A DNA stretch of 64,000 nt from the NCBI GenBank assembly GCA_963921795.1, contig OY997652.1, forward strand, positions 64,216,529 through 64,280,528, given 5' to 3'. This document shows, in pieces, positions 1 through 64,000 of the stretch. How positions within the stretch are numbered: position 1 is the first letter of the stretch; each line of letters starts with the position of its first letter. Position numbers and translations under genes: made by a program. The notes below the pieces were generated by a model. That model worked only from the letters and a program-made list of their open reading frames with translations, made no database searches and had not been told where the DNA came from. This DNA comes from Nannobrachium achirus. Its lineage: Eukaryota; Chordata; Actinopteri; Myctophiformes; Myctophidae.

Positions 1-1492
1 CTAGTAAGTAGACGGGATCTTCGGTTCCTTTCTACTCCTACATACTTAGTGAGAAAATGAAAATAAAAACATCAATGTGTTCAGCTTACAGTGGCGACGT
101 GTGCTATTACTTTATACAGCAATCGGCCAAATGGTGGCGCTGTAGGAAGCCTTCGAAAGTGCGATCTTTGAACAGGTATAGCTCATGCTGTGTTATACAT
201 ACAGCCATGAAACCTGTATACACTTATGCGTCTCCTCATGCCGAACAACTTTTACCCTCTAACTTTTGACCTCTGACCTTTAGGTCTCCCACAATTCGGA
301 ATTATATGAAAAACAGTAAAAATCTATCTCCTCCTGGGATTTTCGCGTCAAGTGCACGAAACTTTTTTCACATGAACTTTGGACCAATACGGTCAGATTG
401 ATCAACCAGATTTTTTTTAAAGTGAAATATAATTTTTTAATAATTTAATCAATATTGCGGTTTTATGCAAATTATTCTTTGGCCTCTAAATCATACATGC
501 AAAGTTACACGTTCATGGCATTTGGCAAAGATGTGGAGGGTTAGTCAAAGTATCACTGAAACCAATTTTATTCCAATCGGCCAAAGGGGGGCGCTATACG
601 AAGCGTTTGAAAATTCAAACTTCAAACGGGCATAAGTCATGACTCGTTTCGTTTGAAGACATGCAACTTGTTCACACGCGTGCTTTGACTCGAGCGGAAG
701 ACATCTGTGTCGTTGTTAAGTAAGCTCCGCCCTTCGATTTTCCGCCATTTTGAGCAGTTTGTAAAACGCGTAAACCCGCTTTTATTCTGGAATTTTCGCT
801 CCACGTGCACAAAACTTTTTTTACGTGAACTTTGGACCGATATCTAAAGATCTGTCAGATTGGATTTCTTTAAAATTGAAACATGCTTTTTTAAATAAAT
901 TCAATGAATATTGCAGTTTTATGCAAATTATTCTTCTGCCTCTAAAACATACATGCAAAGTCACATTTTCATGACAAAATAGTGTAGAGGGTTAGTTCAA
1001 ATATCACTGAAACCAATCTTACCCCAAATGGCCAAAGGGGGGCGCTATATAATTTTGAGCAGTTTGTAAAACGCTTAAACCCGTTTTTATTCTAGGATTT
1101 TTTTTGGCAATTTGCATGAAACATTCTACACGCAATCTAAGGACCTTTATCTAACATGCCTATGAAGTGCACACAAAAAAATTATAAAATAATAATAATA
1201 AATATAGCTGCAAGCAGCGATAAAGTGTCCAAAGCCAAAAACACCTCAAATCATGAACACAGCCTGGGATGTGCGTGAAATCTTGCAAGCACATTCCCAA
1301 TAGGTCAAGGAACAGATACCAACCTTCTCACATTGGCCTGTTATAGCGCCACCAGCGGGTCAACTTTTGCACAACACATTTTTGGAACAAAATGGACCAA
1401 TCTTTGACGTCAGTAACGTCAAAGAGAGCACTGCCTGCGATCTTGACATTTTGTGCTTTTATAGCCATTGTTTTCCGGCTTGAAGCGAGCCC
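1..1492 (+). mobile_element. Array copy E1 (alpha, 5' end cut by window, 3' end truncated)
   Basis: The window opens inside the 5' region, at the CTAGTAAGTAGACGGG variant. The alpha marks are CATGACAAAATAG in the tail and CCTGGGATG in the head. Module B carries the beta-like CTCCACGTG context, a small mosaic. The 3' end stops at GCGAGCCC and is fused directly to a 5'-terminal fragment at 1,493, so the usual hairpin and CTAG are missing. Confidence 0.75.
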
Positions 1493-3152
1493 GCACACTT
1501 TAGATATTGTCATTGTGGGCTCGCCTATAAGGCGAGCACACTTTAGATATTGTCATTATTGTGGGCTCGCCAGTACCTGGCGAGCACACTTTAGATATTG
1601 TCATTATTTATTTATTTATTTATTTGTTTATCTAGTAAGTAGACGGGATCTTCGGTTCCTTTCTACTCCTACATACTTAGTGAGAAAATGAAAATAAAAA
1701 CATCAATGTGTTCAGCTTACTGTGGCGAAGTGTGCTATTACTTTTTACAGCAATCGGCCAAATGGTGGCGCTGTAGGAAGCCTTCGAAAGTGCGAACTTT
1801 GAACAGGTATAGCTCATGCTGTGTTTGAGGTACAGGCATGAAACCTGTATACACGTATGCGTCTCCTCATGCCGAACAACTTTTAGCCTCTGACTTTTGA
1901 CCTCTGACCTTTAGGTCTCCCACAATTCGGAATTATATGAAAAACAGTAAAAATCTATCTCCTCCTGGGTTTTTTTCGATACGCGCACAAAACTTTTTTC
2001 ACATGAACTTTGGACCAATACGGTCAAACTAATCTCGGCGGATTTCTTTTAAAGTGAAATATAATTTTTTAATAATTCAATAAATATTGCAGTTTTATGC
2101 AAATTATTCTTCGGCCTCTAAATCATACATGCAAAGTTACACGTTCATGGCATTTGGCAAAGATGTAGAGGGTTAGTCAAGGTATCACTGAAACCAATTT
2201 TATTCCAATCGGCCAAAGGGGGGCGCTATACGAAGCGTCTGAAAATTCAAACTTCAAACGGGCATAAGTCATGACTCGTTTCGTTTGAAGACATGCAACT
2301 TGTTACACGCGTGCTTTGACTCAAGCGGAAGACATCTGTGTCGTTGTTAAGTAAGCTCCGCCCTTCGATTTTCCGCCACTTTGAGCAGTTTGTAAAACGC
2401 GTAAACCCGCTTTTATTCTGGAATTTTCGCGTCACGTGCACAAAACTTTTTTTACGTGAACTTTGGACCGATATCTAAAGATCTGTCAGATCGGATTTCT
2501 TTAACATTGAAACATGCTTTTTTAAATAATTCAAACAATATTGCATTTTTATGCAAATTATTCTTCTGCCTCTAAAACATACAAGCAAAGTCACATTTTC
2601 ATGACAAAATAGTGTAGAGGGTTAGTTCAAATATCACTGAAACCAATCTTACCCCAAATGGCCAAAGGGGGGCGCTATATAATTTTGAGCAGTTTGTAAA
2701 ACGCTTAAACCCGTTTTTATTCTAGGATTTTTTTTGCAATTTGCATGAAACATTCTACACGCAATCTAAGGACCTTTATCTAACATGCCTATGAAGTGCA
2801 CACAAAAAATTATAAAATAATAATAATAAATATAGCTGCAAGCAGCGATAAAGTGTCCAAAGCCAAAAACACCTCAAATCATGAACACAGCCTGGGATGT
2901 GCGTGAAATCTTGCAAGCACATTCCCAATAGGTCAAGGAACAGATACCAACCTTCTCACATTGGCCTGTTATAGCGCCACCAGCGGGTCAACTTTTGCAC
3001 AACACATTTTTGGAACAAAATGGACCAATCTTTGACGTCAGTAACGTCAAAGAGAGCACTGCCTGCGATCTTGACATTTTGTACTTTTATAGCCATTGTT
3101 TTCCGGCTTGAAGCGAGCCCACAATTGTTTCGAAGGAACAATATTTTTCTAG
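1493..3152 (+). mobile_element. Array copy E2 (alpha) with stacked 5' termini
   Basis: This is the longest uninterrupted copy (1,660 bp), because its 5' end carries three successive versions of the terminal cassette. They are a partial one at 1,493, a full one from 1,513 with a TATAA loop, and a full one from 1,559 with an AGTACCT-type loop. A (TTTA)n tract and CTAGTAAGTAGACGGG follow. The module A frame is broken by TGA (GTTTGAGG near 1,823). The 3' end is intact at 3,149-3,152. Confidence 0.8.
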
Positions 3153-4703
3153 TTATTTCTATACTAGGCATACTAGGCAGTCAGTGCAAGTATCAAAAAA
3201 CTTCGGTTCCTTTCTACTCCTACATACTTAGTGAGAAAATGAAAATAAAAACATCAATGTGTTCAGCTTACTGTGGCGAAGTGTGCTATTACTTTTTACA
3301 GCAATCGGCCAAATGGTGGCGCTGTAGGAAGCCTTCGAAAGTGCGAACTTTGAACAGGTATAGCTCATGCTGTGTTTTAGGTACAGCCATGAAACCTGTA
3401 TACACGTATGCGTCTCCTCATGCCGAACAACTTTTACCCTCTAACTTTTGACCTCTGACCTTTAGGTCTCCCACAATTTGGAATAATATGAAAAACAGTA
3501 AAAATCTATCTCCTCCTGGGTTTTTTTCGTTACGCGCACGAAACCTTTTTCACATGAACTTTGGACCAATACGGTCAGATTTATCTCGGCGGATTTCTTT
3601 TAAAGTGAAATATCATTTTTTAATAATTCAATAGATATTGCGGTTTTATGCAAATTATTCTTCTGCCTCTAAATCATACATGCAAAGTTACACGTTCATG
3701 GCATTTGGCAAAGATGTGGAGGGTTAGTCAAAGTATCACTGAAACCAATTTTATTCCAATCGGCCAAAGGGGGGTGCTATACGAAGCGTTTGAAAATTCA
3801 AACTTCAAACGGGCATAAGTCATGACTCGTTTCGTTTGAAGACATGCAACTTGTTACACGTGTGCTTTGACTCGAGCGGAAGACATCTGTGTCGTTGTTA
3901 AGTAAGCTCCGGCCTTCGGTTTTCCGTCATTTTGAGCAGTTTGTAAAACGCGTAAACCCGCTTTTATTCTGGAATTTTCGCTCCACGTGCACAAAACTTT
4001 TTTTACGTGAACTTTGGACCGATATCTAAAGATCTGTCAGATCGGATTTCTTTAAAATTGAAACATGCCTTTTTAAATATATTCAATGAATGTTGCAGTT
4101 TTATGCAAATTATTCTTCTGCCTCTAAATCATACATGCAAAGTAACATGTTCATGGCATTTGGCAAAGATGTAGAGTGTTAGTCCAAATATCACTGAAAC
4201 CAATCTTACCCCAATTGGCCAAAGGGGGGCGCTATATCATTTTGAGCAGTTTGTGAAACGCTCAAAATAGGATTTTTTCTTTTTTTGCAATTTGCATGAA
4301 ACATTCTACACACAATCTAAGGACCTTTATCTAATATGCCTATGAAGTGCACACACACAAAAAAATAAAAATAAATAATGAATATAGCTGCAAGCAGCGA
4401 TAAAGTGGCCAAAGCCAAAAACACCTCAAATCATGAACACAGCCTGCAATGTGCGTGAAATCTTGCAAGCACATTCCCAATAGGTCAAGGAACAGATACC
4501 ACCCTTCTCACATTGGCCTGTTATAGCGCCACCAGCGGGTCAACTTTTGCACAACACATTTTTGGTCCAAAATGGACCGATCTTTGACGTCAGTAACGTC
4601 AAAGAGAGCACTGCCTGCGATCTTGACATTTTGTACATTTATAGCCATTGTTTTCCGGCTTGAAGCGAGCCCACAATTGTTTCGAAGGAACAATATTTTC
4701 TAG
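3153..4703 (+). mobile_element. Array copy E3 (beta, no 5' hairpin)
   Basis: After CTAG the copy runs TTATTTCTATACTAGGC with a nearby repeat of ATACTAGGC; the GC-rich 5' hairpin is absent. The tail is beta type (second CATGGCATTTGGC, CA/A-rich end). In the head the usual GGAACAAAATGG reads GGTCCAAAATGG, so GGTCC and GGACC flank it as a short chance inverted repeat. The 3' end has one T fewer than most before CTAG. Confidence 0.85.
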
Positions 4704-6241
4704 TGACAATATCTAACCGTCATATCAAGTTCTCCTCAAAACTTCGGTTCCTTTCTACTCCTACATACTTAGTGAGAAAATGAAAATAAAAACATCAATG
4801 TGTTCAGCTTACTGTGGCGACGTGTGCTATTACTTTTTACAGCAATCGGCCAAATGGTGGCGCTGTAGGAAGCCTTCGAAAGTGCGAACTTTGAACAGGT
4901 ATAGCTCATGCTCTGTTATACGTACAGCCATGAAACCTGTATACACGTATGCGTCTCCTCATGCCGAACAATTTTTACGCTCTGACTTTTGACCTCTGAT
5001 CTTTAGATCCCTCAGAATTTGGAATTATATGAAAAACAGTAAAAATCTATCTCCTCCTGGGATCTTTGCGATACGCGCATGAAACTTTTTTCACATGAAC
5101 TTTGGACCAATACGGTCAAACTAGTCTCGGCGGATTTCTTTTAAAGTGAAATATATTTTATTAATAATTCAATCAATGTTGCGGTTTTATGCAAATTATT
5201 CTTCGGCCTCTAAATCATACATGCAAAGTTACACGTTCATGGCATTTGGCAAAGATGTGGAGGGTTAGTCAAAGTATCACTGAAACCAATTTTATTCCAA
5301 TCGGCCAAAGGGGGGCGCTATACGAAGCGTTTGAAAATTCAAACTTCAAACGGGCATAAGTCATGACTCGTTTCGTTTGAAGACATGCAACTTGTTACAC
5401 GCGTGCTTTGACTCGAGCGGAAGACATCTGTGTTGTTGTTAAGTAAGCTCCGCCCCCCGATTTTCCGCCATATTGAGCAGTTTGTAAAACGCGTAAACCC
5501 GCTTTTATTCTGGAATTTTCACTCCACGTGCACAAAACTTTTTTTACGTGAACTTTGGACCGATATCTAAAGATCTGTCAGATCGGATTTCTTTAAAATT
5601 GAAACATGCTTTTTAAAATAAATTCAATGAATATTGCAGTTTTATGCAAATTATTCTTCTGCCTCTAAATCATACATGCAAAGTAACATGTTCATGGCAT
5701 TTGGCAAAGATGTAGAGTGTTAGTCCAAATATCACTAAAACCAATCTTACCCCAATTGGCCAAAGGGGGGCGCTATATCATTTTGAGCAGTTTGTGAAAC
5801 GCTTAAACCCGTTAGGATTTATTTTTGCAATTTGCATGAAACATTCTACACACAATCTAAGGACCTTTATCTAATATGCCTATGAAGTGCACACACACAA
5901 AAAAAAAAAAAATAATGAATATAGCTGCAAGCAGCGATAAAGTGGCCAAAGCCAAAAACACCTCAAATCATGAACACAGCCTGCAATGTGCGTGAAATCT
6001 TGCAAGCACATTCCCAATAGGTCAAGGAGCAGATACCACCCTTCTTACATTGGCCTGTTATAGCGCCACCAGCGGGTCAACTTTTGCACAACACATTTTT
6101 GGAACAAAATGGACCAATCTTTGACGTCAGTAACGTCAAAGAGAGCACTGCCTGCGATCTTGACATTTTGTACTTTTATAGCCATTGTTTTCTGGCTTGA
6201 AGCGAGCCCACAATTGTTTCGAAGGAACAATATTTTTCTAG
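4704..6241 (+). mobile_element. Array copy E4 (beta, inverted-13 junction)
   Basis: It starts with TGACAATATCTAA, the reverse complement of the 13 bases found in hairpin-type 5' ends. Module A has TGATCT instead of TGACCT, which breaks the DR1 motif. Diagnostic variants are ATTTTATTAATAATTC, CCCCCCGATTTTCC, CATATTGAG and TTCACTCCACG. They are shared with E21, and most also with E25 (which has GCTCCACG), making a small subfamily. Length is 1,538 bp, the same as E25. Confidence 0.85.
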
Positions 6242-7832
6242 TTGTGGGCTCGCCTATAAGGCGAGCACACTTTAGATATTGTCATTATTTCTATACTAGG
6301 CAGGCAGTCAGTGCAAGTATCAAAAAACTTCGGTTCCTTTCTACTCCTACATACTTAGTGAGAAAATGAAAATAAAAACATCAATGTGTTCAGCTTACTG
6401 TGGCGACGTGTGCTATTACTTTTTACAGCAATCGGCCAAATGGTGGCGCTGTAGGAAGCCTTCGAAAGTGCGAACTTTGAACAGGTATAGCTCATGCTGT
6501 GTTTGAGGTAAAGCCATGAAACCTGTATACACGTATGCGTCTCCTCATGCCGAACAAATTTTACGCTCTGACTTTTGACCTTTGACCTTTAGATCTCCCA
6601 CAATTTGGAATTATATGAAAAACAGTAAAAATCTATCTTCTCCTGGGTTTTTTTCGTTACGCGCACGAAACTTTTTTCACATGAACTTTGGACCAATACG
6701 GTCAGATTGATCAACCAGATTTCTTTTAAAGTGAAATATAATTTTTTAATAATTCAATCAATATTGCGGTTTTATGCAAATTATTCTTCGGCCTCTAAAT
6801 CATACATGCAAAGTTACACGTTCATGGCATTTGGCAAAGATGTAGAGGGTTAGTCAAAGTATTACTGAAACCAATTTTAGTCCAATCGGCCAAAGGGGGG
6901 CGCTATACGAAGCGTTTGAAAATTCAAACTTCAAACGGGCATAAGTCATGACTCGTTTCGTTTTAAGACATGCAACTTGCTTACACGCGTGCTTTGACTC
7001 GAGCGGAAGACATCTGTGTCTTTGTTAAGTAAGCTCCGCCCTTCGATTTTCCGCCATTTTGAGCAGTTTGTAAAACGCGTAAACCCGCTTTTATTCTGGA
7101 ATTTTCGCTCCACGTGCACAAAACTTTTTTTACGTGAACTTTGGACCAATATCTAAAGATCTGTCAGATCGGATTTTTTTTTTAAATTGAAACATGCTTT
7201 TTTAATAATTCAATGAATATTGCAGTTTTATGCAAATTATTCTTCTGCCTCTAAATCATACATGCAAAGTAACATGTTCATGGCATTTGGCAAAGATGTA
7301 GAGTGTTAGTCCAAATATCACGAAATCCAATCTCACTCCAATTGGCCAAAGGGGGGCGCTATATCATTTTGAGCAGTTTGTGAAACGCTTAAACCTGTTA
7401 GGATTTTTTTAGCAATTTGCATGAAACATTCTACACACAATCTAAGGACCTTTATCTAATATGCCTATGAAGTGCACACACACACAAAAAGAAAAATAAT
7501 AACAAATATAGCTGCAAGCAGCGATAAAGTGGCCAAAGCCAAAAACACCTCAAATCATGAACACAGCCTGCAATGTCCGTGAAATCTTGCAAGCACATTC
7601 CCAATAGGTCAAGGAACAGATACCACCCTTCTTACATTGGCCTGTTATAATAGCGCCACCAGCGGGTCAACTTTTGGCACAACACATTTTTGGAACAAAA
7701 TGGACCAATCTTTGACGTCAGTAACGTCAAAGAGAGCACTGCCTGCGATCTTGACATTTTGTACTTTTATAGCCATTGTTTTCTGGCTTGAAGCGAGCCC
7801 ACAATTGTTTCGAAGGAACAATATTTTTCTAG
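6242..7832 (+). mobile_element. Array copy E5 (beta, 1,591 bp; twin of E17 and E33)
   Basis: The 5' end is a full hairpin with a TATAA loop, followed by CTATACTAGGCAGGCAGTC. Rare marks are ATCACGAAATCCAATC in module C, AAAAAGAAAAATAATAAC before the head, the 3-bp expansion TTATAATAGCG and TTTTGGCAC in the head. The same set and exactly the same length recur at 27,496 and 59,246, while the neighbouring copies differ. Confidence 0.88.
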
Positions 7833-14686: not shown

Positions 14687-14715
14687 TAGCCGGTGAGCTA
14701 TATGGGGTCATATGG

Positions 14716-15790
14716 GGTCATCGGTACCAACTGGGGGGATTAATTTTCATAGTGATTTTTGGGAAGGTATACACCCCCAGTACTAGGGAAAATGTGATAG
14801 CCTTGCAGTGGAGGTAGCTTTTTGTGTGTTATCACTCCTTTTATAACCACATGCCAAAACACAGTTTTCAAAATCCGAATGGAACATTCTACTTCAAACT
14901 GATGGTTCTCTCTTAATATTGACCCTATCTCTTTGAAAAATGGTTGGGATAAAGCTCAGACTATATATTCTTCACTAATGTTGTTAACATTTGCATATCT
15001 ATAATAGTTTTTTTTATTACAGGCAGTGACAACATAGTGACTATAATTATGACATAATCCTCTGTGAACCATGGCTCCACATTATTTGGTCATCGGTACC
15101 ATCTGGGGGGAACGATTCTCATAGTGATTTTTGGGAAGGTATACATCCCTAGAATTAAGAAAAATTTGATAGCCTTGCATCTGTGGTAGCTTTCTGTGTG
15201 TTATCACTCCATTTATAATAACATGCAAACATTTCAAAATCCGAATGGAACATTCTACTTCAAACTGATGGTTGGTTCTCTCTTATTGTTCATCCTATCT
15301 CTTTGAAAAATGGTTGGGATAAAGTTCAGACTATACATATTGTCCAGTAAGGTGGTTAAAATTAGCATATCTAGAATTGTTCTTTACAGGCAGTGACATA
15401 TAGACTAATTATGACATAATACGCCAGGGCCCCAAATTTTGGGTCATCGGTACCATCTGGGAGGGAATGATTCTCATATGGACTTTTGGGAAGGTATACA
15501 TCCCTAGGACTAGGAGATATGTGAGAGCCTTGCATCTGGGGTAGCTTTCTGTGTGTTATCACTTCATCTATAATCACATGCCAAAACACAGTTTTCAAAA
15601 TCCAAATTAAGCATTCTACTTCAAACCGATGATTCTCCCTTAGTATTGATGCTCTGTCTTTGAGAAATGGCAAGGATAAAGCTCAGACTATATGTTTTTC
15701 ATAAAAGTTGTTAAAAGTAGCATCTCTAGAAATGGTATCTATTACAGGCAGTGACAACATACTGTACTGTAGTGTAGTGACTACATTACA
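14716..15790 (+). repeat. Three direct repeats of ~355-370 bp inside the insertion
   Basis: Each repeat starts GGTCATCGGTACC (14,716; 15,088; 15,442), passes through a CATTCTACTTCAAAC block and ends near ACAGGCAGTGAC. The first repeat coincides with the left TIR, so the TIR block is present three times at the left and once, inverted, at the right. The copies differ by small indels and substitutions and look old. Confidence 0.85.
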
Positions 15791-17792
15791 TAAGATGTAC
15801 TTTTGTTTTCATGAAAGATGTAACACAAAGAGTTCCTTAAACCATGTTTACATACATATATTCTAAGGAAATGTATTGTGAAATTCATTAAACAAAATAT
15901 AGTGCAAGTGTGTAAGAAAATATCCAAAATGCCCACTATTTGATCCACTTGTCCTAGTATAGAAACCCTGGGTACTCTAATTTCTTGGTTTTCATATGTG
16001 TAGAATCCATACCTCACACGTTTAGGTCAGGTCAAGGTAACATTTGACCTCTGGGAGAACAACAAATATAAACAACTTGATGAATATTCATCTTTCACTT
16101 AATAAAGTGTTTGTGAAAACGGTCATTGGCATGACACAGAACTGGCATTAATAAGGGTAATAATAATAATAATAATAGTAACATTATATAATAACATGGC
16201 AATATGTATCTTTTGCAACTACATCTGTATTCTCCAACTCATAATCAGGATCAGAAAGTAAACCCACCGCATCCTCCTGGCCTTCAACCTCCTGACTGGC
16301 ACACAGTAAGGATGTAAGGATGAGGTTCCAGAGGTGGCTGCATCAGGGTCATAGGAATTTAGGAAGTCTTGGTGATGTCTGCCTCATCATGACTAAATGC
16401 AGTAGCCTATCTATCACCAGCACTGAAGGTGTCCACCATGCTCAACAGCTTCTGCTCTGTTCTTGCTCTTCAGGATGACATCTTATGTGGTTAAAGGATA
16501 TTACCATGCACATTGTTGGGGACATTTACCAATAATGGGATTGAAGAGATGAGGGCAGTGATCTTTCTGTGTGTGGATACACCCCGATATTTTACAACCA
16601 AGACACACCAGTGCTTAGACTCCCTACTACTGTTACTGCACATTTTGGGTAGGCGTCAGTCAACTCTACCCACATGCGTCATGACAGCATCATTCCTGCT
16701 CTCTCAGCCTGCTCCCCAGACTGGTGAGCAGAGACAGTGATCCAGAATCCATTATGGTGCTGACAGACAAGTTCTAGCTTAGCCTCATATGGCATGGAGA
16801 CCATGCATCTCAGCAGGCACTGGGTGAGATATCAAGCATATTGCACATGGCCAGCACGGAAGAAGCACTTCATCATGTGTCATGAGAGAAAAGGTGACAA
16901 CCTATTAACAAGGTGTCTCCCTGCATGTTCAAACTGGTGAATGGGAAGTATACAGTAGGAAGAATTAAGTTGTCTACCCAAAGTCAGCCAGTCGGATGCA
17001 CAGTGTCCAAGTAGACTGCTGCTGTATCTGTTCAAATTTCTTTGGTCTAGTTGATACAAACTACTTCAGAGTGCAGCTGATACACTCAAGACTATTACCA
17101 CTGAACTTGCCTGTCAGCCCTCCATATGCAAACACATGCATTTCCAGCGCTGAACTTTGCAACAGTATTGCAATGCAGCTGAGGAATGACTGTATAACAT
17201 GTCAATTGTGAGGTGAACACTCTACATGTCAACCAGTGACCATAGCTGCTGCCTGCTTGGACACCTGGATAAGGAGTGATAAGATGTGAGAGACCTTAAC
17301 CTGACCTTTAGCACATAGGCCTAAGACTGAATGGCAATTGAATATATAACAGTAATCTACACCTATGCCCCCCAGGTACCCATATGAATCACCATACGTT
17401 CACAGATTCCCTCACACAACTGAAATACAATTTGTTATTTTTAACAAAATGATGTACAATCATTGGATCATTGCAATACAATGGATTTGGCAATAAATAA
17501 TTAACTGATGGTAATTTCACTGATTCAGCCACATTCATTGAACCCTAAAACCTTGGGTTAGATAACCAATACCACCTTTCTATAGGTTGAACAGTATCAT
17601 AACGCTATTTAAGCTCCAGGCAGCCATCTTGGACGCCATCTTGAAAATGATGGATTTATAAGACATATAAATTCCTAAATCTTTAGTGTGTTCTTAAGCA
17701 TGCCTAGAGGTAACATAACTAGTTGAAAAACCTTTTATATAGGGGGGTTAAGTAGTATGCTTTCATAAATTGACCCAAGTAATTTTCGCCTA
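15791..17792. other. Unique interior of the insertion, no gene recognised
   Basis: About 2 kb of sequence that does not repeat elsewhere in the window. It holds an (AAT)n microsatellite near 16,158-16,178 and two close GCCATCTTG motifs near 17,622-17,645. The reading frames at 16,513-16,740 and 16,996-17,211 are short and show no family features. It may be captured host DNA or a decayed transposon interior. Confidence 0.5.
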
Positions 17793-18817
17793 GTGTTATA
17801 AAATAAAATGCATGATAGCACCCATAAAGCTACCTCTGGTGCAAGGCTATCACATATTTTCTGACTCTAGACATGCATACCTTGACAAAAATCACTATGA
17901 GCATTATTCCCCTCAGATGGTACCGACCAACCCCAGTGGCTCATGAACTAATGCAACTTGCTTACACGCGTGCTTTGACTCGAGCGGAAGACATCTATGT
18001 CGTTGTTAAGTAAGTTGTTAAGTAAGATTTTCCGCCATTTTGAGCAGTTTGTAAAACGCGTAAACCCGCTTTTATTCTGGAATTTTCGCTCCACGTGCAC
18101 AAAACTTTTTTTACGTGAACTTTGGACCGATATCTAAAGATCTGTCAGATCGGATTTCTTTAAAAGTGAAACATGCTTTTTTAAATAAATTCAATGAATA
18201 TTGCAGTTTTATGCAAATTATTCTTCTGCCTCTAAATCAAACATGCAAAGTAACATGTTCATGGCATTTGGCAAAGATGTAGAGTGTTAGTCCAAATATC
18301 ACTAAAACCAATCTTACCCCAATTGGCCAAAGGGGGGCGCTATATCATTTTGAGCAGTTCGTGAAACGCTTAAACCCGTTAGGATTTTTTTTTTTGCAAT
18401 TTGCATGAAACATTCTACACACAATCTAAGGACCTTTATCTAATATGCCTATGAAGTGCACACACACACACACACAAAAAAAATAATAATGAATATAGCT
18501 GCAAGCAGCGATAAAGTGGCCAAAGCCACTTGGCCACCTCAAATCATGAACACAGCCTGCAATGTGCGTGAAATCTTGCAAGCACATTCCCAATAGGTCA
18601 AGGAACAGATACCACCCTTCTTACATTGGCCTGTTATAGCGCCACCAGCGGGCCAACTTTTGCACAACACATTTTTGGAACAAAATGGACCAATCTTTGA
18701 CGTCAGTAACGTCAAAGAGAGCACTGCCTGCGATCTTGACATTTTGTACTTTTATAGCCATTGTTTTCCGGCTTGAAGCGAGCCCACAATTGTTTCGAAG
18801 GAACAATATTTTTCTAG

Positions 18818-27495: not shown

Positions 27496-29086
27496 TTGTG
27501 GGCTCGCCTATAAGGCGAGCACACTTTAGATATTGTCATTATTTCTATACTAGGCAGGCAGTCAGTGCAAGTATCAAAAAACTTCGGTTCCTTTCTACTC
27601 CTACATACTTAGTGAGAAAATGAAAATAAAAACATCAATGTGTTCAGCTTACTGTGGCGACGTGTGCTATTACTTTTTACAGCAATCGGCCAAATGGTGG
27701 CGCTGTAGGAAGCCTTCGAAAGTGCGAACTTTGAACAGGTATAGCTCATGCTGTGTTTGAGGTAAAGCCATGAAACCTGTATACACGTATGCGTCTCCTC
27801 ATGCCGAACAACTTTTACGCTCTGACTTTTGACCTTTGACCTTTAGATCTCCCACAATTTGGAATTATATGAAAAACAGTAAAAATCTATCTCCTCCTGG
27901 GTTTTTTTCGTTACGTGCACGAAACTTTTTTCACATGAACTTTGGACCAATACGGTCAGATTGATCAACCAGATTTCTTTTAAAGTGAAATATAATTTTT
28001 TAATAATTCAATCAATATTGCGGTTTTATGCAAATTATTCTTCGGCCTCTAAATCATACATGCAAAGTTACACGTTCATGGCATTTGGCAAAGATGTAGA
28101 GGGTTAGTCAAAGTATTACTGAAACCAATTTTAGTCCAATCGGCCAAAGGGGGGCGCTATACGAAGCGTTTGAAAATTCAAACTTCAAACGGGCATAAGT
28201 CATGACTCGTTTCGTTTTAAGACATGCAACTTGCTTACACGCGTGCTTTGACTCGAGCGGAAGACATCTGTGTCTTTGTTAAGTAAGCTCCGCCCTTCGA
28301 TTTTCCGCCATTTTGAGCAGTTTGTAAAACGCGTAAACCCGCTTTTATTCTGGAATTTTCGCTCCACGTGCACAAAACTTTTTTTACGTGAACTTTGGAC
28401 CAATATCTAAAGATCTGTCAGATCGGATTTTTTTTTTAAATTGAAACATGCTTTTTTAATAATTCAATGAATATTGCAGTTTTATGCAAATTATTCTTCT
28501 GCCTCTAAATCATACATGCAAAGTAACATGTTCATGGCATTTGGCAAAGATGTAGAGTGTTAGTCCAAATATCACGAAATCCAATCTCACTCCAATTGGC
28601 CAAAGGGGGGCGCTATATCATTTTGAGCAGTTTGTGAAACGCTTAAACCCGTTAGGATTTTTTTAGCAATTTGCATGAAACATTCTACACACAATCTAAG
28701 GACCTTTATCTAATATGCCTATGAAGTGCACACACACACAAAAAGAAAAATAATAACAAATATAGCTGCAAGCAGCGATAAAGTGGCCAAAGCCAAAAAC
28801 ACCTCAAATCATGAACACAGCCTGCAATGTCCGTGAAATCTTGCAAGCACATTCCCAATAGGTCAAGGAACAGATACCACCCTTCTTACATTGGCCTGTT
28901 ATAATAGCGCCACCAGCGGGTCAACTTTTGGCACAACACATTTTTGGAACAAAATGGACCAATCTTTGACGTCAGTAACGTCAAAGAGAGCACTGCCTGC
29001 GATCTTGACATTTTGTACTTTTATAGCCATTGTTTTCTGGCTTGAAGCGAGCCCACAATTGTTTCGAAGGAACAATATTTTTCTAG
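27496..29086 (+). mobile_element. Array copy E17 (beta, 1,591 bp; twin of E5 and E33)
   Basis: It carries the complete rare-variant set described for E5 and has the same length to the base. Differences noticed from E5 include CTCCTCCTGGG where E5 has TTCTCCTGGG, and CGAACAACTTT where E5 has CGAACAAATTT. Upstream and downstream neighbours are unlike those of E5. Confidence 0.88.
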
Positions 29087-44619: not shown

Positions 44620-44653
44620 TTGTGGGCTCGCCTATAAGGCGAGCACACTTTTA

Positions 44654-46753
44654 GTAGGGCAGGAGAGAGGGGTCTACCAGCACCCCAATGACATGTTTTC
44701 GAAACCTGTTTTTTTTGGACCGTTATGATGTCTAGTTATGATTTCTGCTTGTTGCCGTCGCCAACTAATGTCCCATGGGGTTCATTTTTAACCTTTTCTC
44801 ACAACTATTCCCGATCTGAACCATACAATGGTCATAACAGAAAATGCCATAACTCTTGATGTAAACAACCTACAGGGACAAATGAACACACTTTTCTATA
44901 TGACTTTGACCCAGGGAATTCATTAAAGTGGTTATTTTTAACATTTATGCACATCTTGACCCTATTTCAGGACAGAAACGGTGAAAAATAACCCAAAAAT
45001 GTTCAAAACACGTCTATACTTCTCTTTGTACAGATAAATTAAGGTGTATTCTTTTGATACCACAGGTTTTTTAGGACCCTTATGATGTCTAGTTATGATT
45101 TCTGCTTGTTGCCGTGGTCAACTAATGTCCCATGGGGTTCATTTTTAACCTTTTCTCACATATCCCCAATTAGTGTGGGGATTTAGGGGAGCAAATGCTA
45201 ATTTCGTGCAATTTTGACTTAAAGCGCGAAATTTTGCACAGATGTAGCCCAGGGCTTGCTCTAATGATTTAGCTAGGGCGCCCGAGTCTGCGACCTTTGG
45301 GGTCTCCACAGCGGTCAAATCAAGTTGGGCTTCCATTGACTTTCTATACAGGAGGAAAATACCCAGAAAAAGATTTTTTTTCTGGGTATTTAAGGAGGAT
45401 CTGAGGGGTCTAACTAGGGGTTTGTCATGATGCTGAATCCATTGCAGGCATTTGTTTTGCACAAAAAACATTCTGTGGGCTAGAAATGGCCTCAGAAAAC
45501 AATACACGTATGGGTGAGTATTCATGTTAGTCGGAGGCCTTAGGTTTTTTTTTTCTTGTGCTAATCAGTCTAAAAGTTCAAAATTTTGCACAGATGTAGC
45601 TCAGGGCATGTTCTAAAGATTTAGCTAGGGCGCCCGAGTCTGCGACCTTCGGGGTCGCCACAGCACCCACACAACTCTGAAAAGTGATGACTCATCACTT
45701 TTCATCACTAAAGTCGATGGGAGCCCAACTTGATTTGGCCGCTGTGGCAACCCCGAATGTCGCAGACTCGGGCGCCCTAGTTAAATCATTAGAGCATGCC
45801 CTGAGCTACATCTGTGCAAAATCTTGAACTTTTAGACTGATTAGCACGAGAAAAAAAAACCCTAAGGCCTCCGACTAACATGAATACTCACCCATACGTG
45901 TATTGTTTTCTAAGGCCATTTCTAGCCCACTGAATGTTTTTTGTGCAAAACAAATGCCTGAAATGGATTCAGCATCATGACAAACCCCTAGTTAGACCCC
46001 TCAGATCCTCCTTAAATACCCAGAAAAAAAATCTTTTTCTGGGTATTTTCCTCCTGTATAGAAAGTCAATGGAAGCCCAACTTGATTTGACCGCTGTGGA
46101 GACCCCGAAGGTCGCAGACTCGGACGCCCTAGCTAAATCATTAGAGCAAGCCCTGGGCTACATATGTGCAAAATTTCGCGCTTTAAGTCAAAATTGCACG
46201 AATTTAGCATTTGCTCCCCTAAATCCCCACACTAATTGGGGATATGTGAGAAAAGGTTAAAAATTAACCCCATGGGACATTAGTTGACCACGGCAACAAG
46301 CAGAAATCATAACTAGACATCATAAGGGTCCTAAAAAAACTGTGGTATCAAAAGAATACACCTTAATTCATCTGTACAAAGAGAAGTATAGACGTGTTTT
46401 GAACATTTTTGGGTTATTCTTCGCCGTTTCTGTCCTGAAATAGGGTCAAGATGTGCTTAAATGTAAAAAATAACCACTTTAATGAATTCCCTGGGTCAAA
46501 ATCATATAGAAAAGTGTGTTCATTTGTCCCTGTAGGTTGTTTACATCAAGAGTTATGGCATTTTCTGTTATGACCATTGTATGGTTCAGATCGGGAATAG
46601 TTGTGAGAAAAGGTTAAAAATGAACCCCATGGGACATTAGTTGGCGACGGCAACAAGCAGAAATCATAACTAGACATCATAACGGTCCAAAAAAAACAGG
46701 TTTCGAAAACATGTCATTGGGGTGCTGGTAGACCCCTCTCTCCTGCCCTACTA
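44654..46753. mobile_element. 2.1-kb foldback (near-palindromic) transposon
   Basis: The element starts TAGTAGGGCAGGAGAG and ends with its exact reverse complement. The left arm runs to about 45,665, the right arm from about 45,743, and a 77-bp centre holds a small hairpin (AAAAGTGATGA...). TTT flanks both sides; the empty site in other copies is CACTTTAGATATT. The arms differ by scattered substitutions. The arms contain mirrored reading frames of 126 and 108 codons (45,145-45,525 minus, 45,934-46,260 plus), which are by-products of the palindrome and match no family I know. Confidence 0.85.
44716..45163 (+). repeat. Direct repeat inside the left foldback arm
   Basis: About 90 bp beginning near TTATGATGTCTAGTTATG and including CCCATGGGGTTCATTTTTAA occurs twice, near 44,716-44,811 and 45,073-45,163. 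A second pair, around GCGCCCGAGTCTGCGACCTT, lies near 45,279 and 45,630. Both pairs are mirrored in the right arm. Confidence 0.75.
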
Positions 46754-46770
46754 TTTAGATATTGTCATTA

Positions 46771-49230: not shown

Positions 49231-50198
49231 TGTTGAACTTACAAGCACACTTTCTAAAACTTCGGCACGCTACTAGTGCCACACCATTTACGCCACCCCC
49301 ACAATATATACATCAAAACGTGCGGCTCGGCCGGGAATGGTGTGCTTGTAACTTTCTTTCCAATCCGCGTTACCATGGCGAAGTAATAGGCAAAAAACTA
49401 CGCTTAATTTTCCCCATTGACTTATAATGGGACAATGCAAGAAATCACATTCAAGTATTTTTCTCTCGCAAAGCATAGGAGCTACAGTTTCAAACCTCGG
49501 AGAGGAGATTCATAATGATTGTAAGAATGAATCGAAAAATAATTACATCACTCGACCTCATGGTGGCGCTATAACGACCCACTTCACGTTTTGAACCGTA
49601 ACTCTTGAACCGTAGATCGGAAAATTAAAATTATTTTTTCCCTGGATTCCTTGGGTCGAGACGCATCTCCCCATATAGGCCACGCCCATTTGCGCCAGGA
49701 TAGATTTTCCGCCATCTTGAATTATCTCCAAAACACACTTTTTGCTCCTTTTCCTACATATTTTCTTCAAATCTCACAAAAAGCGGTACACGTGATCTAT
49801 GAAGCCATGCAATGAACACAGTAAAGGGAAATTTCGATAGTCCATACCGTTCGTTTGTAACAGGCTTCCAAAGTTAGCGGGAGGGGCCCGTTTCGCAAAC
49901 GATAGCCATAAATCACAAACAAAACCTCGGGTCAACACCGAATTTTAACCACAGGTCGCGGGTGGCATACTCTACGTATCCCCAAAAGCATTTCCACTTC
50001 GACCCATAGGGGGCGTCACAAGCGCGCGAAACGTAACCCTTTCGTGCCAAAACGCGTTTTTCACAGGGAGCGACCCTCTCACAACGAAACGCAGACAACT
50101 CGGCGGATGGTCTCACGGTCCAAACCGCTGCATGAGGTCGCGCATTCAGCGAGCTGCACTGCAGGCACACTTGTCAAAATTGACTCTGTCAATTCTAG
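49231..50198 (+). mobile_element. Second family, copy 3 (968 bp, variant 5' end)
   Basis: After CTAG the first ~35 bp (TGTTGAACTTACAAGC...) differ from copies 1 and 2; homology resumes at GGCACGCTACT. The core lies at 49,561. The 3' terminal repeat, hairpin and CTAG (50,195-50,198) are intact, and the next base returns to array copy E28. Confidence 0.75.
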
Positions 50199-53277: not shown

Positions 53278-54456
53278 TGACAATATCTAACCGTCATATC
53301 AAGTTCTCCTCAAAACTTCGGTTCCTTTCTACTCCTACATACTTAGACAGAAAATGAAAATAAAAACATCAATGTGTTCAGCTTACAGTGGCGAAGTGTG
53401 CTATTATTTTTTACAGCAATCGGCCAAATGGTGGCGCTGTAGGAAGCCTTCGAAAGTGCGAACTTTGAACAGATAGAGCTCATGCTCTGTTATACGTACA
53501 GTCATGAAACTTGTATACACGTATGCGTCTCCTCATGCCGAACAACTTTTGCGCTCTGACTTTTGACCTCTGACCTTTAGATCCCCCAGAATTTTGAATT
53601 ATATAAAAAACAGTAAAAATCTATCTCCTCCTGGGATTTTTGCGTTACGCGCACAAAACTTTTTTCACATGAACTTTGGACCAATACGGTCAAACTAGTC
53701 TCGGCGGATTTCTTTTAAAGTGAAATATAATTTTTTAATACTTCAATCAATATTGCGGTTTTATGCAAATTATTCTTCAGCCTCTAAATCATACATGCAA
53801 AGTTACACGTTCATGGCATTTGGCAAAGATGTGGAGGGTTAGTCAAAGTATCACTGAAACCAATTTTATTCCAATCGGCCAAAGGGGGGCGCTATACGAA
53901 GCGTTTGAAAATTCAAACTTCAAACGGGCATAAGTCATGACTCGTTTCGTTTGAAGACATGCAACTTGTTACACGCGTGCTTTGACTCAAGCGGAAGACA
54001 TCTGTGTTGTTGTTAAGTAAGCTCCGCCCTTCGATTTTCCGCCATTTTGAGCAGTTTGTAAAACGCGTAAACCCGCTTTTATTCTGGAATTTTTGCTCCA
54101 CGTGCACAAAACTTTTTTTACGTGAACTTTGGACCGATATCTAAAGATCTGTCAGATCGGATTTCTTTAAAATTGAAACATGCTTTTTTAAATAAATTCA
54201 ATGAATATTGCAGTTTTATGCAAATTATTCTTCTGCCTCTAAATCATACATGCAAAGTAACATGTTCATGGCATTTGGCAAAGATGTAGAGTGTTAGTCC
54301 AAATATCACTAAAACCAATCTTACCCCAATTGGCCAAAGGGGGGCGCTATATCATTTTGAGCAGTTTGTGAAACGCTTAAACCCGTTAGGATTTTTTTTT
54401 GCAATTTGCATGAAACATTCTACACACAATCTAAGGACCTTTATATAATACTAGAA

Positions 54457-54483
54457 GCTGGGCCGCCCTTCGGGCGGCCCAGC
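54457..54483. other. 3' hairpin of the Helitron
   Basis: GCTGGGCCGCCC and GGGCGGCCCAGC form a perfect 12-bp GC-rich stem with a TTC loop. After one mismatch the pairing extends to the end itself (CTAGA with TCTAG, 54,451-54,489), so the terminal CTAG is inside the fold. Confidence 0.9.
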
Positions 54484-54540
54484 GTCTAGTCGGCGACCTG
54501 GCCAACTCGGGAACGATGTAAATAGGGAATGAATCCCCCG

Positions 54541-55180
54541 CCCTTTAATGCAAACCCCATTATACCTGTTGTCATAGAACCCGTTTTGACCATCTGTTTG
54601 CCTGTGTCCATTTATGCCCATATATGGAGATATCTGTATCTGTCTGTCTGTCGGCGTCCATTTTATGTCCATATATGGAGATCACTGCAGATATAGTTCT
54701 GGGTCCATTTTATGCCCATATGCCCATATATGGAGATATCTGTCTATTTGTGTCCATTTTATGCCCATATATGGAGATCTCTGTATCTGTCCGTCTGTGT
54801 CCCTTTATGCCCGTATATGGAGATATCTGTTTATCTGCGTCCATTTTATGCCCATATATGAGATCTCTGTCGCTTTTTGTAAGCAGAATACACAGCCTGC
54901 TTAAATCTGCATCATTCAAGTCATCCTCCCAGTCCCACGCTTTGTCGCTTGTCTTATGTTTGTTTTTGTCTCTTTTATTTTCTTTTTTGGAGCGGACCCC
55001 ATGAATGCCCCATCCTTTAATGCAAACCCCAATATACCTGTTGTCATAGGACCCGTTTTGACCATCTGTTAGCCTTTGTCCCCACCCTTTAATGCAAACC
55101 CCAATATACCTGTTGTCATAGGACCCGTTTTGACCATCTGTTTGCCTTTGTCCCCTTATGCCCATATATGGAGATCTCTG
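54541..55180 (+). repeat. Short tandem repeats inside the Helitron
   Basis: A CCATATATGGAGAT-centred unit with TATGCCC before it and ATCTGT after it recurs about seven times between 54,610 and 55,175 at irregular 40-60 bp steps. A second unit of about 70 bp (CCCTTTAATGCAAACCCC to GACCATCTGTT) occurs at about 54,541, 55,013 and 55,085. Frames across these repeats are long only because of the repetition. Confidence 0.85.
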
Positions 55181-55189
55181 CACACACAG

Positions 55190-55680
55190 TACCGGTTGCG
55201 GAAAACTCTGATGTCAGACATCAGCTCCGCATTCGTGGATTCATTTTATGCCTATATCTGGAGAAAGCGTGTGCCGGTGGGAAGAACGGTTCTCGAGATT
55301 CACATACATACATACACATTCACAGAGATTTTTTGTTGACTCATGTGGCGTACGTGTCACGTGCCTGTGTCCATCACGTACTGACATCACGTACTACGTG
55401 ATGTCACAGCCTTTTATGAAGTGATGTCACAATGAGTCAGCGCTTGCGCCGATTTCCTCCGGAACAGCCTGATGTCAACAATCAGCTCCGCATAAGGAGA
55501 TTCCGAACGTTTCGCGCCGGTTTCGGAAAACCGCGAGTCGGGTCGGGTCGAGGCCCGGCACTGCACTCCGCGCGGCGGCGGGGAACGCGCGTGCCGAATC
55601 TGAAGCCGGTGGGACGAACGGTTCTCGAGATACGCGGATTACAAACAAACAAACAAACAGACAGAGATTTGTCGCATTTA
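55190..55680 (+). repeat. Duplicated 5'-subterminal block of the Helitron
   Basis: Two diverged copies of one block: GATGTCA..CATCAGCTCCGCAT near 55,211, with GAACGGTTCTCGAGAT near 55,286, and the same pair near 55,471 and 55,615. The second is followed by (CAAA)n and CAGACAGAGATTT. Between them lies an 11-bp-arm hairpin, TGACATCACGT/ACGTGATGTCA (55,382-55,406). Confidence 0.75.
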
Positions 55681-56054
55681 TAGATAGATGCCTATGAAGT
55701 GCACACACACGAAAAAAAATAATAATAATGAATATAGCTGCAAGCAGCGATAAAGTGGCCAAAGCCAAAAACACCTCAAATCATGAACACAGCCTGCAAT
55801 GTGCGTGAAATCTTACAAGCACATTCCCAATAGGTCAAGGAACAGATACCACCCTTCTTACATTTGCCTGTTATAGCGCCACCAGCGGGTCAACTTTTGC
55901 ACAACACATTTTTGGAACAAAATGGACCAATCTTTGACGTCAGTAACGTCAAAGAGAGCACTGCCTGCGATCTTGACATTTTGTACTTTTATAGCCATTG
56001 TTTTCTGGCTTGAAGCGAGCCCACAATTGTTTCGAAGGAACAATATTTTTCTAG

Positions 56055-59245: not shown

Positions 59246-60836
59246 TTGTGGGCTCGCCTATAAGGCGAGCACACTTTAGATATTGTCATTATTTCTATAC
59301 TAGGCAGGCAGTCAGTGCAAGTATCAAAAAACTTCGGTTCCTTTCTACTCCTACATACTTAGTGAGAAAATGAAAATAAAAACATCAATGTGTTCAGCTT
59401 ACTGTGGCGACGTGTGCTATTACTTTTTACAGCAATCGGCCAAATGGTGGCGCTGTAGGAAGCCTTCGAAAGTGCGAACTTTGAACAGGTATAGCTCATG
59501 CTGTGTTTGAGGTAAAGCCATGAAACCTGTATACACGTATGCGTCTCCTCATGCCGAACAAATTTTACGCTCTGACTTTTGACCTTTGACCTTTAGATCT
59601 CCCACAATTTGGAATTATATGAAAAACAGTAAAAATCTATCTTCTCCTGGGTTTTTTTCGTTACGCGCACGAAACTTTTTTCACATGAACTTTGGACCAA
59701 TACGGTCAGATTGATCAACCAGATTTCTTTTAAAGTGAAATATAATTTTTTAATAATTCAATCAATATTGCGGTTTTATGCAAATTATTCTTCGGCCTCT
59801 AAATCATACATGCAAAGTTACACGTTCATGGCATTTGGCAAAGATGTAGAGGGTTAGTCAAAGTATTACTGAAACCAATTTTAGTCCAATCGGCCAAAGG
59901 GGGGCGCTATACGAAGCGTTTGAAAATTCAAACTTCAAACGGGCATAAGTCATGACTCGTTTCGTTTTAAGACATGCAACTTGCTTACACGCGTGCTTTG
60001 ACTCGAGCGGAAGACATCTGTGTCTTTGTTAAGTAAGCTCCGCCCTTCGATTTTCCGCCATTTTGAGCAGTTTGTAAAACGCGTAAACCCGCTTTTATTC
60101 TGGAATTTTCGCTCCACGTGCACAAAACTTTTTTTACGTGAACTTTGGACCAATATCTAAAGATCTGTCAGATCGGATTTTTTTTTTAAATTGAAACATG
60201 CTTTTTTAATAATTCAATGAATATTGCAGTTTTATGCAAATTATTCTTCTGCCTCTAAATCATACATGCAAAGTAACATGTTCATGGCATTTGGCAAAGA
60301 TGTAGAGTGTTAGTCCAAATATCACGAAATCCAATCTCACTCCAATTGGCCAAAGGGGGGCGCTATATCATTTTGAGCAGTTTGTGAAACGCTTAAACCT
60401 GTTAGGATTTTTTTAGCAATTTGCATGAAACATTCTACACACAATCTAAGGACCTTTATCTAATATGCCTATGAAGTGCACACACACACAAAAAGAAAAA
60501 TAATAACAAATATAGCTGCAAGCAGCGATAAAGTGGCCAAAGCCAAAAACACCTCAAATCATGAACACAGCCTGCAATGTCCGTGAAATCTTGCAAGCAC
60601 ATTCCCAATAGGTCAAGGAACAGATACCACCCTTCTTACATTGGCCTGTTATAATAGCGCCACCAGCGGGTCAACTTTTGGCACAACACATTTTTGGAAC
60701 AAAATGGACCAATCTTTGACGTCAGTAACGTCAAAGAGAGCACTGCCTGCGATCTTGACATTTTGTACTTTTATAGCCATTGTTTTCTGGCTTGAAGCGA
60801 GCCCACAATTGTTTCGAAGGAACAATATTTTTCTAG
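59246..60836 (+). mobile_element. Array copy E33 (beta, 1,591 bp; twin of E5 and E17)
   Basis: It carries the full rare-variant set and exact length of E5 and agrees with E5 rather than E17 at TTCTCCTGGG and CGAACAAATTT. It follows an alpha copy and precedes a hairpin-less one, unlike either twin. Confidence 0.88.
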
Positions 60837-62374: not shown

Positions 62375-63978
62375 TTGTGGGCTCGCCTATAGGCGAGCAC
62401 ACTTTAGATATTGTCATTATTTCTATACTATACTATACTAGTCATATAAAGTTCTCCTCAAAACTTCGGTTCCTTTCTACTCCTACATACTTAGTGAGAA
62501 AATGAAAATAAAAACATCAATGTGTTCAGTTTACAGTGGCGAAGTGTGCTATTATTTTCTATAGCAATCGGCCAAATGGTGGCGCTGTAGGAAGCCTTCG
62601 AAAGTGCGATCTTTGAACAGGTATAGCTCATGCTGTGTTATACATACAGCCATGAAACCTGTATACACTTATGCGTCTCCTCATGCCGAACAACTTTTAC
62701 CCTCTAACTTTTGACCTCTGACCTTTAGGTCTCCCACAATTCGGAATTATATGAAAAACAGTAAAAATCTATCTCCTCCTGGGATTTTCGCGTCAAGTGC
62801 ACAAAACTTTTTTCACATGAACTTTGAACCTATATCTACACAGGCTATGTGGTGAGAAGTTTGTACGTTAAATAATGATTTTTTAATAATTCAATATATA
62901 TTGCGGTTTTATGCAAATTATTCTTCGGCCTCTAAATCATACATGCAAAGTTACACGTTCATGGCATTTGGCAAAGATGTGGAGGGTTAGTCAAAGTATC
63001 ACTGAAACCAATTTTATTCCAATCGGCCAAAGGGGGGCGCTATACGAAGCGTCTGAAAATTCAAACTTCAAACGGGCATAAGTCATGACTTGTTTTGTTT
63101 GAAGACATGCAACTTGTTACACGCGTGCTTTGACTCAAGCGGAAGACATCTGTGTCGTTGTTAAGTAAGCTCCGCCCTTCGATTTTCCGCCATTTTGAGC
63201 AGTTTGTAAAACGCGTAAACCCGCTTTTTTTCTGGAATTTTCGCGTCACGTGCACAAAACTTTTTTTACGTGAACTTTGGACCGATATCTAAAGATCTGT
63301 CTGATCGGATTTCTTTAACATTGAAACATGCTTTTTTAAATAATTCAAACAATATTGCATTTTTATGCAAATTATTCTTCTGCCTCTAAAACATACATGC
63401 AAAGTCACATTTTCATGACAAAATAGTGTAGAGGGTTAGTTCAAATATCACTGAAACCAATCTTACCCCAAATGGCCAAAGGGGGGCGCTATATAATTTT
63501 GAGCAGTTTGTAAAACGCTTAAACCCGTTTTTATTCTAGGATTTTTTTTGCAATTTGCATGAAACATTCTACACACAATCTAAGGACCTTTATCTAACAT
63601 GCCTATGAAGTGCACACAAAAAAATTATAAAATAATAATAATAAATATAGCTGCAAGCAGCGATAAAGTGTCCAAAGCCAAAAACACCTCAAATCATGAA
63701 CATCATGAAATCATGAACTGGGATGTGCGTGAAATCTTGCAAGCACATTCCCAATAGGTCAAGGAACAGATACCAACCTTCTCACATTGGCCTGTTATAG
63801 CGCCACCAGCGGGTCAACTTTTGCATAACACATTTTTGGAACAAAATGGACCAATCTTTGACGTCAGTAACGTCAAAGAGAGCACTGCCTGCGATCTTGA
63901 CATTTTGTGCTTTTATAGCCATTGTTTTCTGGCTTGAAGCGAGCCCACAATTGTTTCGAAGGAACAATATTTTTCTAG
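62375..63978 (+). mobile_element. Array copy E35 (alpha, replaced patch)
   Basis: The hairpin loop is shortened (GCCTATAGGCG). The junction contains a TATAC triplication (CTATACTATACTATACTAG). It carries the same replaced patch as E22, starting GAACCTATATCTACACAGGC near 62,826. The head has a local rearrangement, ATCATGAAATCATGAACTGG near 63,702. Confidence 0.86.
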
Positions 63979-64000
63979 TGACAATATCTAACCGTCATAT
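63979..64000 (+). mobile_element. Array copy E36, first 22 bp only
   Basis: It opens with the inverted-13 junction (TGACAATATCTAACCG), so the array continues past the window edge. Confidence 0.8.

Follow-up and report, generated by a model that had tools for sequence, protein, structure and literature searches.

A satellite-like array of a Helentron-like element in Nannobrachium achirus, probably built by serial insertion of the element into its own family's ends

The window, a stretch of 64,000 nucleotides from the myctophid fish Nannobrachium achirus (assembly GCA_963921795.1, 1.66 Gb; contig OY997652.1, positions 64,216,529-64,280,528, or C15:64216529-64280528 in the coordinates used here), lies wholly within a head-to-tail array of a short transposable element. 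By its structure the repeated unit is a non-autonomous Helentron-like (HINE) rolling-circle transposon of the form 5'-TTGTGGG...CTAG-3'. Comparison of its copies makes it probable that the C15 array arose through serial insertion of the element into the ends of its own family, more than through local copying of the array, and the data would be best explained if a smaller share is left, beside serial insertion, to rolling-circle dimers and recombination.

In the mechanism that we propose the element would prefer the target T-N-R^T(T), and every insertion would recreate such targets: TAG^T at the tail, R^TTGTGGG at the tip, and GTCATTA^TT 46 bases inside the 5' end. New copies would land at these recreated sites in the orientation of the resident. 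Landing at a joint would yield a tail-to-tip or tail-to-B junction (type B units lack the tip), and landing in the 5' microsatellite would split the resident, leaving a 46-bp stub on the left and its right half on the right. Satellite-like arrays would in this way grow as single monomers, whose source copies lie elsewhere in the genome, insert one after another. We infer that a Helentron-type Rep/helicase acts in trans via a single-stranded or circular intermediate, and binding of the transposase to the element's ends may account for a bias towards them beyond the motif; occasional bypass of an inner CTAG would move dimers. Sequence comparison establishes what the ends are, that the target is not duplicated, which motif is targeted, that single monomers have spread between contigs, and where the insertions read are positioned.

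A blast of one unit against the window returned units mostly 1.53-1.60 kb long on one strand only, amounting to 35 bodies and 34 intact tails plus the 22-base start of a next unit; the plus strand carries 18 tips and 34 tails, and the minus strand none of either. The preliminary description of this DNA had reported at least 36 copies in the same orientation: the orientation stands, and the count is corrected to 35 bodies with 34 intact 3' ends. It had also set the 3' end of each copy against the 5' end of the next, which holds at 16 of the 34 joints, where a true tip follows the tail; 15 tails are followed by the tipless type B start TGACAATATCTAACC, and 3 (after 3152, 12452 and 60836) by the 5' microsatellite of a resident unit. 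Overall, the array that it outlined is confirmed in part, and its interpretation partly supported. The 34 intact tails have the consensus GCGAGCCCAC(A/T)ATTGTTTCGAAGGAACAATATTT(T/TT)CTAG. Sixteen of the 18 tips (TTGTGGGCTCGCC) follow CTAG, and the other two (1513 and 1559) are preceded by 5'-end remnants that stop at GTCA and GTCATTA. The relevant features are as follows.

1..64000, plus strand: head-to-tail array of the non-autonomous Helentron-like element, with 35 unit bodies and 34 intact 3' ends.
6242..7832, plus strand: 1591-bp complete A1 unit that has its 5' tip; no difference from 59246-60836 and 4 from 27496-29086.
27496..29086, plus strand: second A1 copy, with other neighbours (unit comparison).
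59246..60836, plus strand: third A1 copy, with other neighbours (unit comparison, exact-match search).
6242..6253, plus strand: 5' asymmetric terminal repeat TTGTGGGCTCGC (sequence pattern).
6244..6270, plus strand: 5' hairpin nested with the terminal repeat, GTGgGCTCGCCT ATA AGGCGAGCaCAC (folding; loop variants keep the pairing).
6281..6296, plus strand: start of the 5' microsatellite, GTCATTATTTCTATAC, with insertion points favoured after GTCA (6284) and GTCATTA (6287).
7793..7804, plus strand: 3' asymmetric repeat GCGAGCCCACAA, followed by the hairpin TTGTTTCGAAGGAACAA and a CTAG ending at 7832 (pattern, folding).
4704..6241, plus strand: type B unit, tipless, with 5' end TGACAATATCTAACC (joint listing).
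7833, 9371, 10913, 14002, 25957, 30663, 32195, 33733, 40014, 41552, 43082, 51743 and 53278, plus strand: starts of further type B units; at 63979, the start only.
1493..1512, plus strand: 5' remnant GCACACTTTAGATATTGTCA; a deletion took the previous unit's tail and its own tip.
1513..1558, plus strand: 46-bp 5'-end remnant of a resident, cut off by the insertion of the next unit.
1559..3152, plus strand: unit inside the resident's 5' microsatellite, its tail followed by the right half at 3153 (TTATTTCTATAC).
3153..4703, plus strand: right half of the split copy, a member of the youngest cluster of units.

At the deletion joint (1477-1512) a unit's 3' repeat, GCGAGCCC, is fused to the 5' hairpin arm GCACACTT, with the loss of one tail and one tip.

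The array continues on both sides of the window to span C15:64208477-64286925 (78 kb). A manual count gives it 44 bodies (21 with their own tip, 16 of type B and 7 right halves), and 43 tails against 27 tips. Its right-end piece (L010 4710-6397) comes from a divergent relative, of which it is the right half, and has a similar tail, GCGAGCCCACACTGTTTCGAAGGAACAGTTTTTCTAG; the 5' stub of the divergent relative at this end has the hairpin loop TGGAAGG, which is seen again at L036:2625. This last piece of the C15 array (c15 88710-90397, from C15:64285238) was rejected as a unit of the family, as it has no blastn match longer than 200 bp to the unit. Genome-wide, the exact 20-base tail-to-tip joint TTTCTAGTTGTGGGCTCGCC occurs 1,732 times (847 + 885) and its reversed control not once, so the joint is not due to chance; at about 1,732 joints in 1.66 Gb the arrangement is common in this genome and not the curiosity of one locus. 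Two joints on C1 (G000:C1:70117221 and C1:70117819) change strand within 600 bp, so oppositely oriented arrays adjoin there.

The asymmetric terminal repeats claimed in the preliminary description were recovered exactly, TTGTGGGCTCGC at the tip and GCGAGCCCACAA, of which the window has 33 exact copies, 28 bases in from the terminal CTAG, and together with the nested 5' hairpin and the hairpin-CTAG tail they bear out the Helentron/DINE-1-type layout that it had proposed. The 5' repeat forms the left arm of a strong hairpin (z -6.3 to -7.3 in the three variants folded, 0 of 200 shuffles being equally stable), whose loop differs among copies while 2-4 inner pairs are kept in all eight variants counted. 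Between GCGAGCCCACAA and CTAG lies the 3' hairpin TTGTTTC-GAA-GGAACAA (z -2.5, 3 of 200 shuffles equally stable), and the microsatellite starts approximately 46 bases inside the tip. The longest open reading frame of the window has 171 amino acids, and none of the 5 frames scanned, out of 6 listed, scored above the Pfam cut-off.

The unit carries the features of the HINE / DINE-1 group (Thomas, Vadnagara and Pritham 2014, PMC4067079), namely asymmetric subterminal inverted repeats at both ends, a 3' stem-loop, a 5' palindrome overlapping the repeat, insertion at T-rich or TT sites without a target duplication, and no coding capacity of its own. In the parts of that paper that deal with the group, the subterminal repeats of the mite elements lie about 2-4 nt inside the 5' end and 38-60 nt inside the 3' end; the palindrome nested in the 5' repeat, the 3' stem-loop, the microsatellite, the T-rich target without duplication and the non-coding interior are likewise shared. 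As for canonical Helitrons, the 5' end is TT and not TC, and the 3' CTAG and the mostly A^T insertion do fit. The end features of Helitron2 (asymmetric repeats, two hairpins) are also present, although Helitron2 and Helentron are distinguished by their protein and the comparison made here is one of ends alone. Considered as a satellite, the array is a one-orientation head-to-tail tandem and shows no local homogenisation (p=0.44; see below). A search with the Helitron_like_N profile yielded 245 candidates, of which 150 were scored, all above the cut-off and many in open frames of 1400-3176 amino acids, so transposases are plentiful in the genome. Exact patterns, one per search, gave no match to relatives in viral contigs or genome contigs, and one unit had no blastn match among plasmids and phages.

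In their relatedness the units are unlike those of a classical satellite. Unit bodies in the window differ by 4.49% on average and adjacent ones by 4.45% (shuffle test p=0.44), with a minimum of 1.28% between neighbours. Twenty-four pairs of units are less than 1.6% apart, and 46 of the 48 pairs flanking them differ by more than 1.6% (median 4.84%), 40 of the 48 by at least 3%; the two exceptions are one two-unit block. Among the A1 units at 6242, 27496 and 59246 there are at most 4 differences over 1591 bases, and two of the three are identical. The first and last of these share an exact match of 1661 bp that ends at CTAG+T, with flanks at 67 (left) and 49 (right) differences per 1000; over the three A1 pairs the flanks range from 17 to 67 per 1000 on the left and from 49 to 148 on the right, gaps being counted per base.

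In a classical satellite, one tail-to-tip dimer would have been expanded and homogenised by unequal crossing-over and gene conversion. Such a history would suit the mosaic make-up of the units, which combine a small number of left and right haplotypes, as well as the two-unit block that is repeated (9371/10913 and 51743/53278). It would also suit the unit tree, on which joint type tracks body lineage (3 changes versus 11.1 when shuffled) and type B clusters, and exchange could have spread type B given that CTAG precedes it in 36 of 36 cases. We nevertheless regard it as unlikely, since neighbours have no excess similarity and near-identical units are mostly single, dispersed and on different contigs, one cluster-mate (L017) being solitary in host DNA. 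Unequal crossing-over was accordingly rejected as the main engine: neighbours are not more alike, and single units are spread. When the A units were removed, no significant signal of an older B array with local order was obtained (p=0.18).

The movement of single monomers between contigs was followed in 20 + 12 further stretches, which with the window cover 29 of the 40 listed full-length matches to one 351-bp body query. Fourteen of the 99 units read form the youngest cluster (single linkage at 99%), and compared with the solitary L017, 12 of the 13 others differ by 4-6 substitutions and one by 13. Six of the fourteen sit between a family CTAG and a type B start or tip (on C144, C17 (two), C4, C18 and C10); within the 1595 bp all 15 pairs among these six have 2-5 differences, against 9-49 per 700 in the left flanks and 23-47 per 700 in the right flanks of 14 pairs; the fifteenth pair, L020 with L021, shares a dimer (see below). 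Of the other eight, three lie in or beside a resident microsatellite (L019, L023/24, L026), L017 is solitary, L022 is flanked by host DNA on its left and a right half on its right, and three (C15, L016, L025) no longer have their own tip.

Whole monomers might also be copied by ectopic gene conversion between arrays on different chromosomes, with tract ends limited by the unit's conserved final portion and by the heterologous joints. However, the young monomer also stands with the same two ends at L017, where array-to-array conversion cannot have placed it because this copy lies alone in host DNA, and we give this explanation very little credence. Rolling-circle concatemers, in which the terminator is missed and multimers insert whole, as proposed for plant centromeric Helitrons, would account for two other cases: a 3133-bp dimer of a young unit and a B1 unit at L020 and L021 (C18 and C10), which has 9 differences inside and flanks differing by 38 and 40 per 700, and a trimer of a second family in one target site with its third copy tipless (see below). 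We best read the dimer as an occasional bypass of the inner terminator. As a general account concatemers appear quite improbable: a fresh multimer predicts near-identical neighbours, whereas those of the window differ by 4.45% in the mean and by at least 1.28%, and the plant arrays, in the part of PMC12628747 that treats them, often have several 5' ends and one 3' end, whereas 3' ends outnumber tips in the C15 array, 43 to 27. Because adjacent units are unrelated and duplication normally involves a single monomer, concatemer replication was not the main route. Of the two routes put forward in the preliminary description, rolling-circle replication thus gives way to repeated TT-targeted insertion, which is supported by the single-monomer spread, an empty site without duplication (L027) and the target motif.

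At L012, L017, L035 and L036 host DNA contains single copies that run from TTGTGGG to CTAG and are followed by a T, in agreement with the boundaries expected in the preliminary description. At L027 a host tandem repeat harbours two stacked copies at one site, and comparison with the empty form, GATAGTAA^TTACTACTATAG, reveals that nothing was lost or duplicated (among the empty repeats of the locus one is an exact copy and 15 have GATAGTAATTA). Where tips adjoin host or other DNA (17 cases), position -3 of the left flank is always T and position -1 is A or G in 15; two of these flanks are CTAG ends of apparent other Helentron families (L023). Across all 82 tips in the loci read, the left context is a family CTAG in 41, a resident's 5' microsatellite in 20 and host or other DNA in 17. 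The remaining four comprise two microsatellite stubs just after CTAG and two tips filed as body, one of the latter being the stub of a variant 5' end and the other a true body case (L025). Eighteen of the 20 microsatellite insertions, events that are partly non-independent, lie at GTCA^ or GTCATTA^. The plus strand of A1 contains 46 TNR^T and 9 TNA^TT sites, so the motif alone is insufficient to explain why insertions favour the ends. The C15 array contains seven 5' stubs, one of them tipless, and seven right halves; their order, entered by hand with a 13-base microsatellite piece after c15 87067 omitted, nests validly, and the lone divergent stub (loop TGGAAGG) precedes the lone divergent right half. 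That the array is a collapsed or scrambled repeat produced by assembly seems to us extremely unlikely: near-identical repeat arrays are hard to assemble and a run of N begins 2.6 kb to the right of this one, but it has defined edges on both sides, the same grammar recurs elsewhere, and small nested cases occur in host DNA (L022, L026, L027).

The tipless type B units call for separate discussion. In all loci read their starts follow CTAG (36 of 36 cases). B1 copies were found twice on C15 and once each on C18, C10, C3 and C13, with 3-10 differences per pair in 1538, and the unit ahead of B1 is a young monomer in 3 of 6 cases and otherwise in 3 of 6. These copies could have spread via dimers with different partners, through recombination, or by use of the neighbour's tail as a start signal. 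Although doubtful, it is attractive to think that the whole array might be a mobile system, whereby the hairpin-CTAG^T tail of a unit would serve as start signal for excising the unit behind it, as that unit's stop signal and as landing site elsewhere, and tipless B units would thus hop singly, as monomers, from joint to joint between chromosomes. If true, this would be rolling-circle transposition with the neighbour's 3' end in place of the element's own 5' end. As to the origin of type B, TGACAATATCTAA is an inverted copy of TTAGATATTGTCA, which belongs to the normal 5' end, and lost 5' ends may have been mended by snap-back repair. The idea that type B is the right half of a resident split at the perfect palindrome TTAGATATTGTCATGACAATATCTAA was set aside, the 16 B units of the C15 array having no matching stubs of their own. 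On the reverse strand of L025, after 6676, we noted a second fold-back joint, CTAG/TGAGAACTTGATATTGTCATATCAAGTTCTC, with an inverted repeat resembling the inverted piece of type B.

Several points weigh against serial insertion into own ends as the account of these arrays. Tip-dependent insertion alone is insufficient, because tipless, near-identical B1 copies occur in arrays on five contigs; the dimer shared by C18 and C10 moved as one piece; and mosaic units imply that recombination also acts. One insertion lies in a unit body (L025), one copy ends inside the body of an inverted unit (L033), and the right half at L022 is without its stub. In the C15 array the stub at 21513 fits its paired right half at 23152 only via a 3-base slip or duplication, and a random order of seven stubs and seven right halves nests properly one time in eight. 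In addition, L037 (858-2479) lies alone in host DNA and carries two stacked 5' tips and a single tail; it seemingly moved as one chimera, so that stacked stubs can be inherited; given this movable copy and the one-in-eight odds, we treat the stub nesting as supporting evidence only. The loci are a biased sample, being 29 of the 40 listed best matches of one young-type query.

In comparison with HINE/DINE-1 elements, which PMC4067079 describes as interspersed and with tandem repeats within elements, here whole elements would be arrayed by insertion into their own ends. The same paper, in its passages on clustering, attributes bat and silkworm Helitron clusters to terminator bypass and reports that bat and maize Helitrons are sometimes directly adjacent. 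The Phytophthora Proto-Helentron that it presents shares the 5' TT, the 3' CTAG and insertion between A and T without duplication, but is autonomous and approximately 14 kb long, and arrays are not mentioned in the text devoted to it. Fusarium FoHeli/Helitron2 elements (PMC5148889, in the sections bearing on their ends and insertions) have asymmetric terminal repeats, with hairpins at both termini in FoHeli1 and FoHeli2; these two prefer to insert after TNAT. Self-insertion and joined-end amplicons are also described, and elements with several 5' termini and one 3' terminus recall L037. A three-copy tandem from Metarhizium is given two readings there, one of them insertion into 5' ends. These sections describe few cases and no arrays of tens of units, and the FoHeli 3' ends are not CTAG. 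Plant centromeric Helitrons (Xiong, Dooner and Du 2016, as outlined in PMC12628747) likewise form long tandem arrays of a rolling-circle transposon; in that outline the units are truncated, many arrays have several 5' ends and one 3' end, and loss of the terminator is the explanation given, whereas here nearly every unit has kept its tail. Drosophila dimers (McGurk and Barbash 2018, as summarised in PMC12628747 and PMC9659126) are also tandems that arise from site preference during active transposition, but those double insertions are dimers, and here there are tens of units whose target is carried by the element. A literature search of one library found no paper on vertebrate self-targeting Helentron arrays, and a text search of the literature for GCTGCAAGCAGCGAT found none either.

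Transposon-born satellites are usually argued from old, homogenised arrays, whereas here the steps are still legible as split stubs, right halves, and the same young monomer both solitary in host DNA and in the arrays of other contigs. The case is useful for telling serial self-targeted insertion apart from rolling-circle multimers and unequal exchange, and suggests the testable rule that a transposon whose termini recreate its preferred target would pile up into arrays.

Three inserts break the array of the window (14687-17950, 44652-50198 and 54451-55688) and contain the following elements.

14687..17950, no strand assigned: terminal inverted repeat-type element TAGCC...AACTA, with a 3-bp duplication ATG and internal repeats of approximately 372 bp.
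44652..46753, no strand assigned: fold-back element, a palindrome of approximately 2.1 kb with a 3-bp duplication TTT, in the 5' end of unit 44620.
46771-47780, 47781-49230 and 49231-50198, plus strand: three head-to-tail copies of a second Helentron-like family, in unit 44620.
54451..55688, minus strand: canonical-type Helitron A^TC...GC-rich hairpin..TTCTAG^T, which interrupts a unit without target duplication (judged against intact units).

A relative of the Helitron at 54451-55688 is the host DNA at the right edge of the array at L014. The target of the second family was GTCATTA^TTTCTATAC of unit 44620, a site that is intact in five other units. Its copies have the 5' end TTAAGTGTGCCT and the 3' end AGGCACACTT, a weak hairpin and CTAG, the third copy being tipless; the hairpin is not significant alone (z -1.4, 19 of 200 shuffles equally stable). 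Elements resembling this family are interleaved with units of the first at L039 and L023, and arrays may therefore mix Helentron families.

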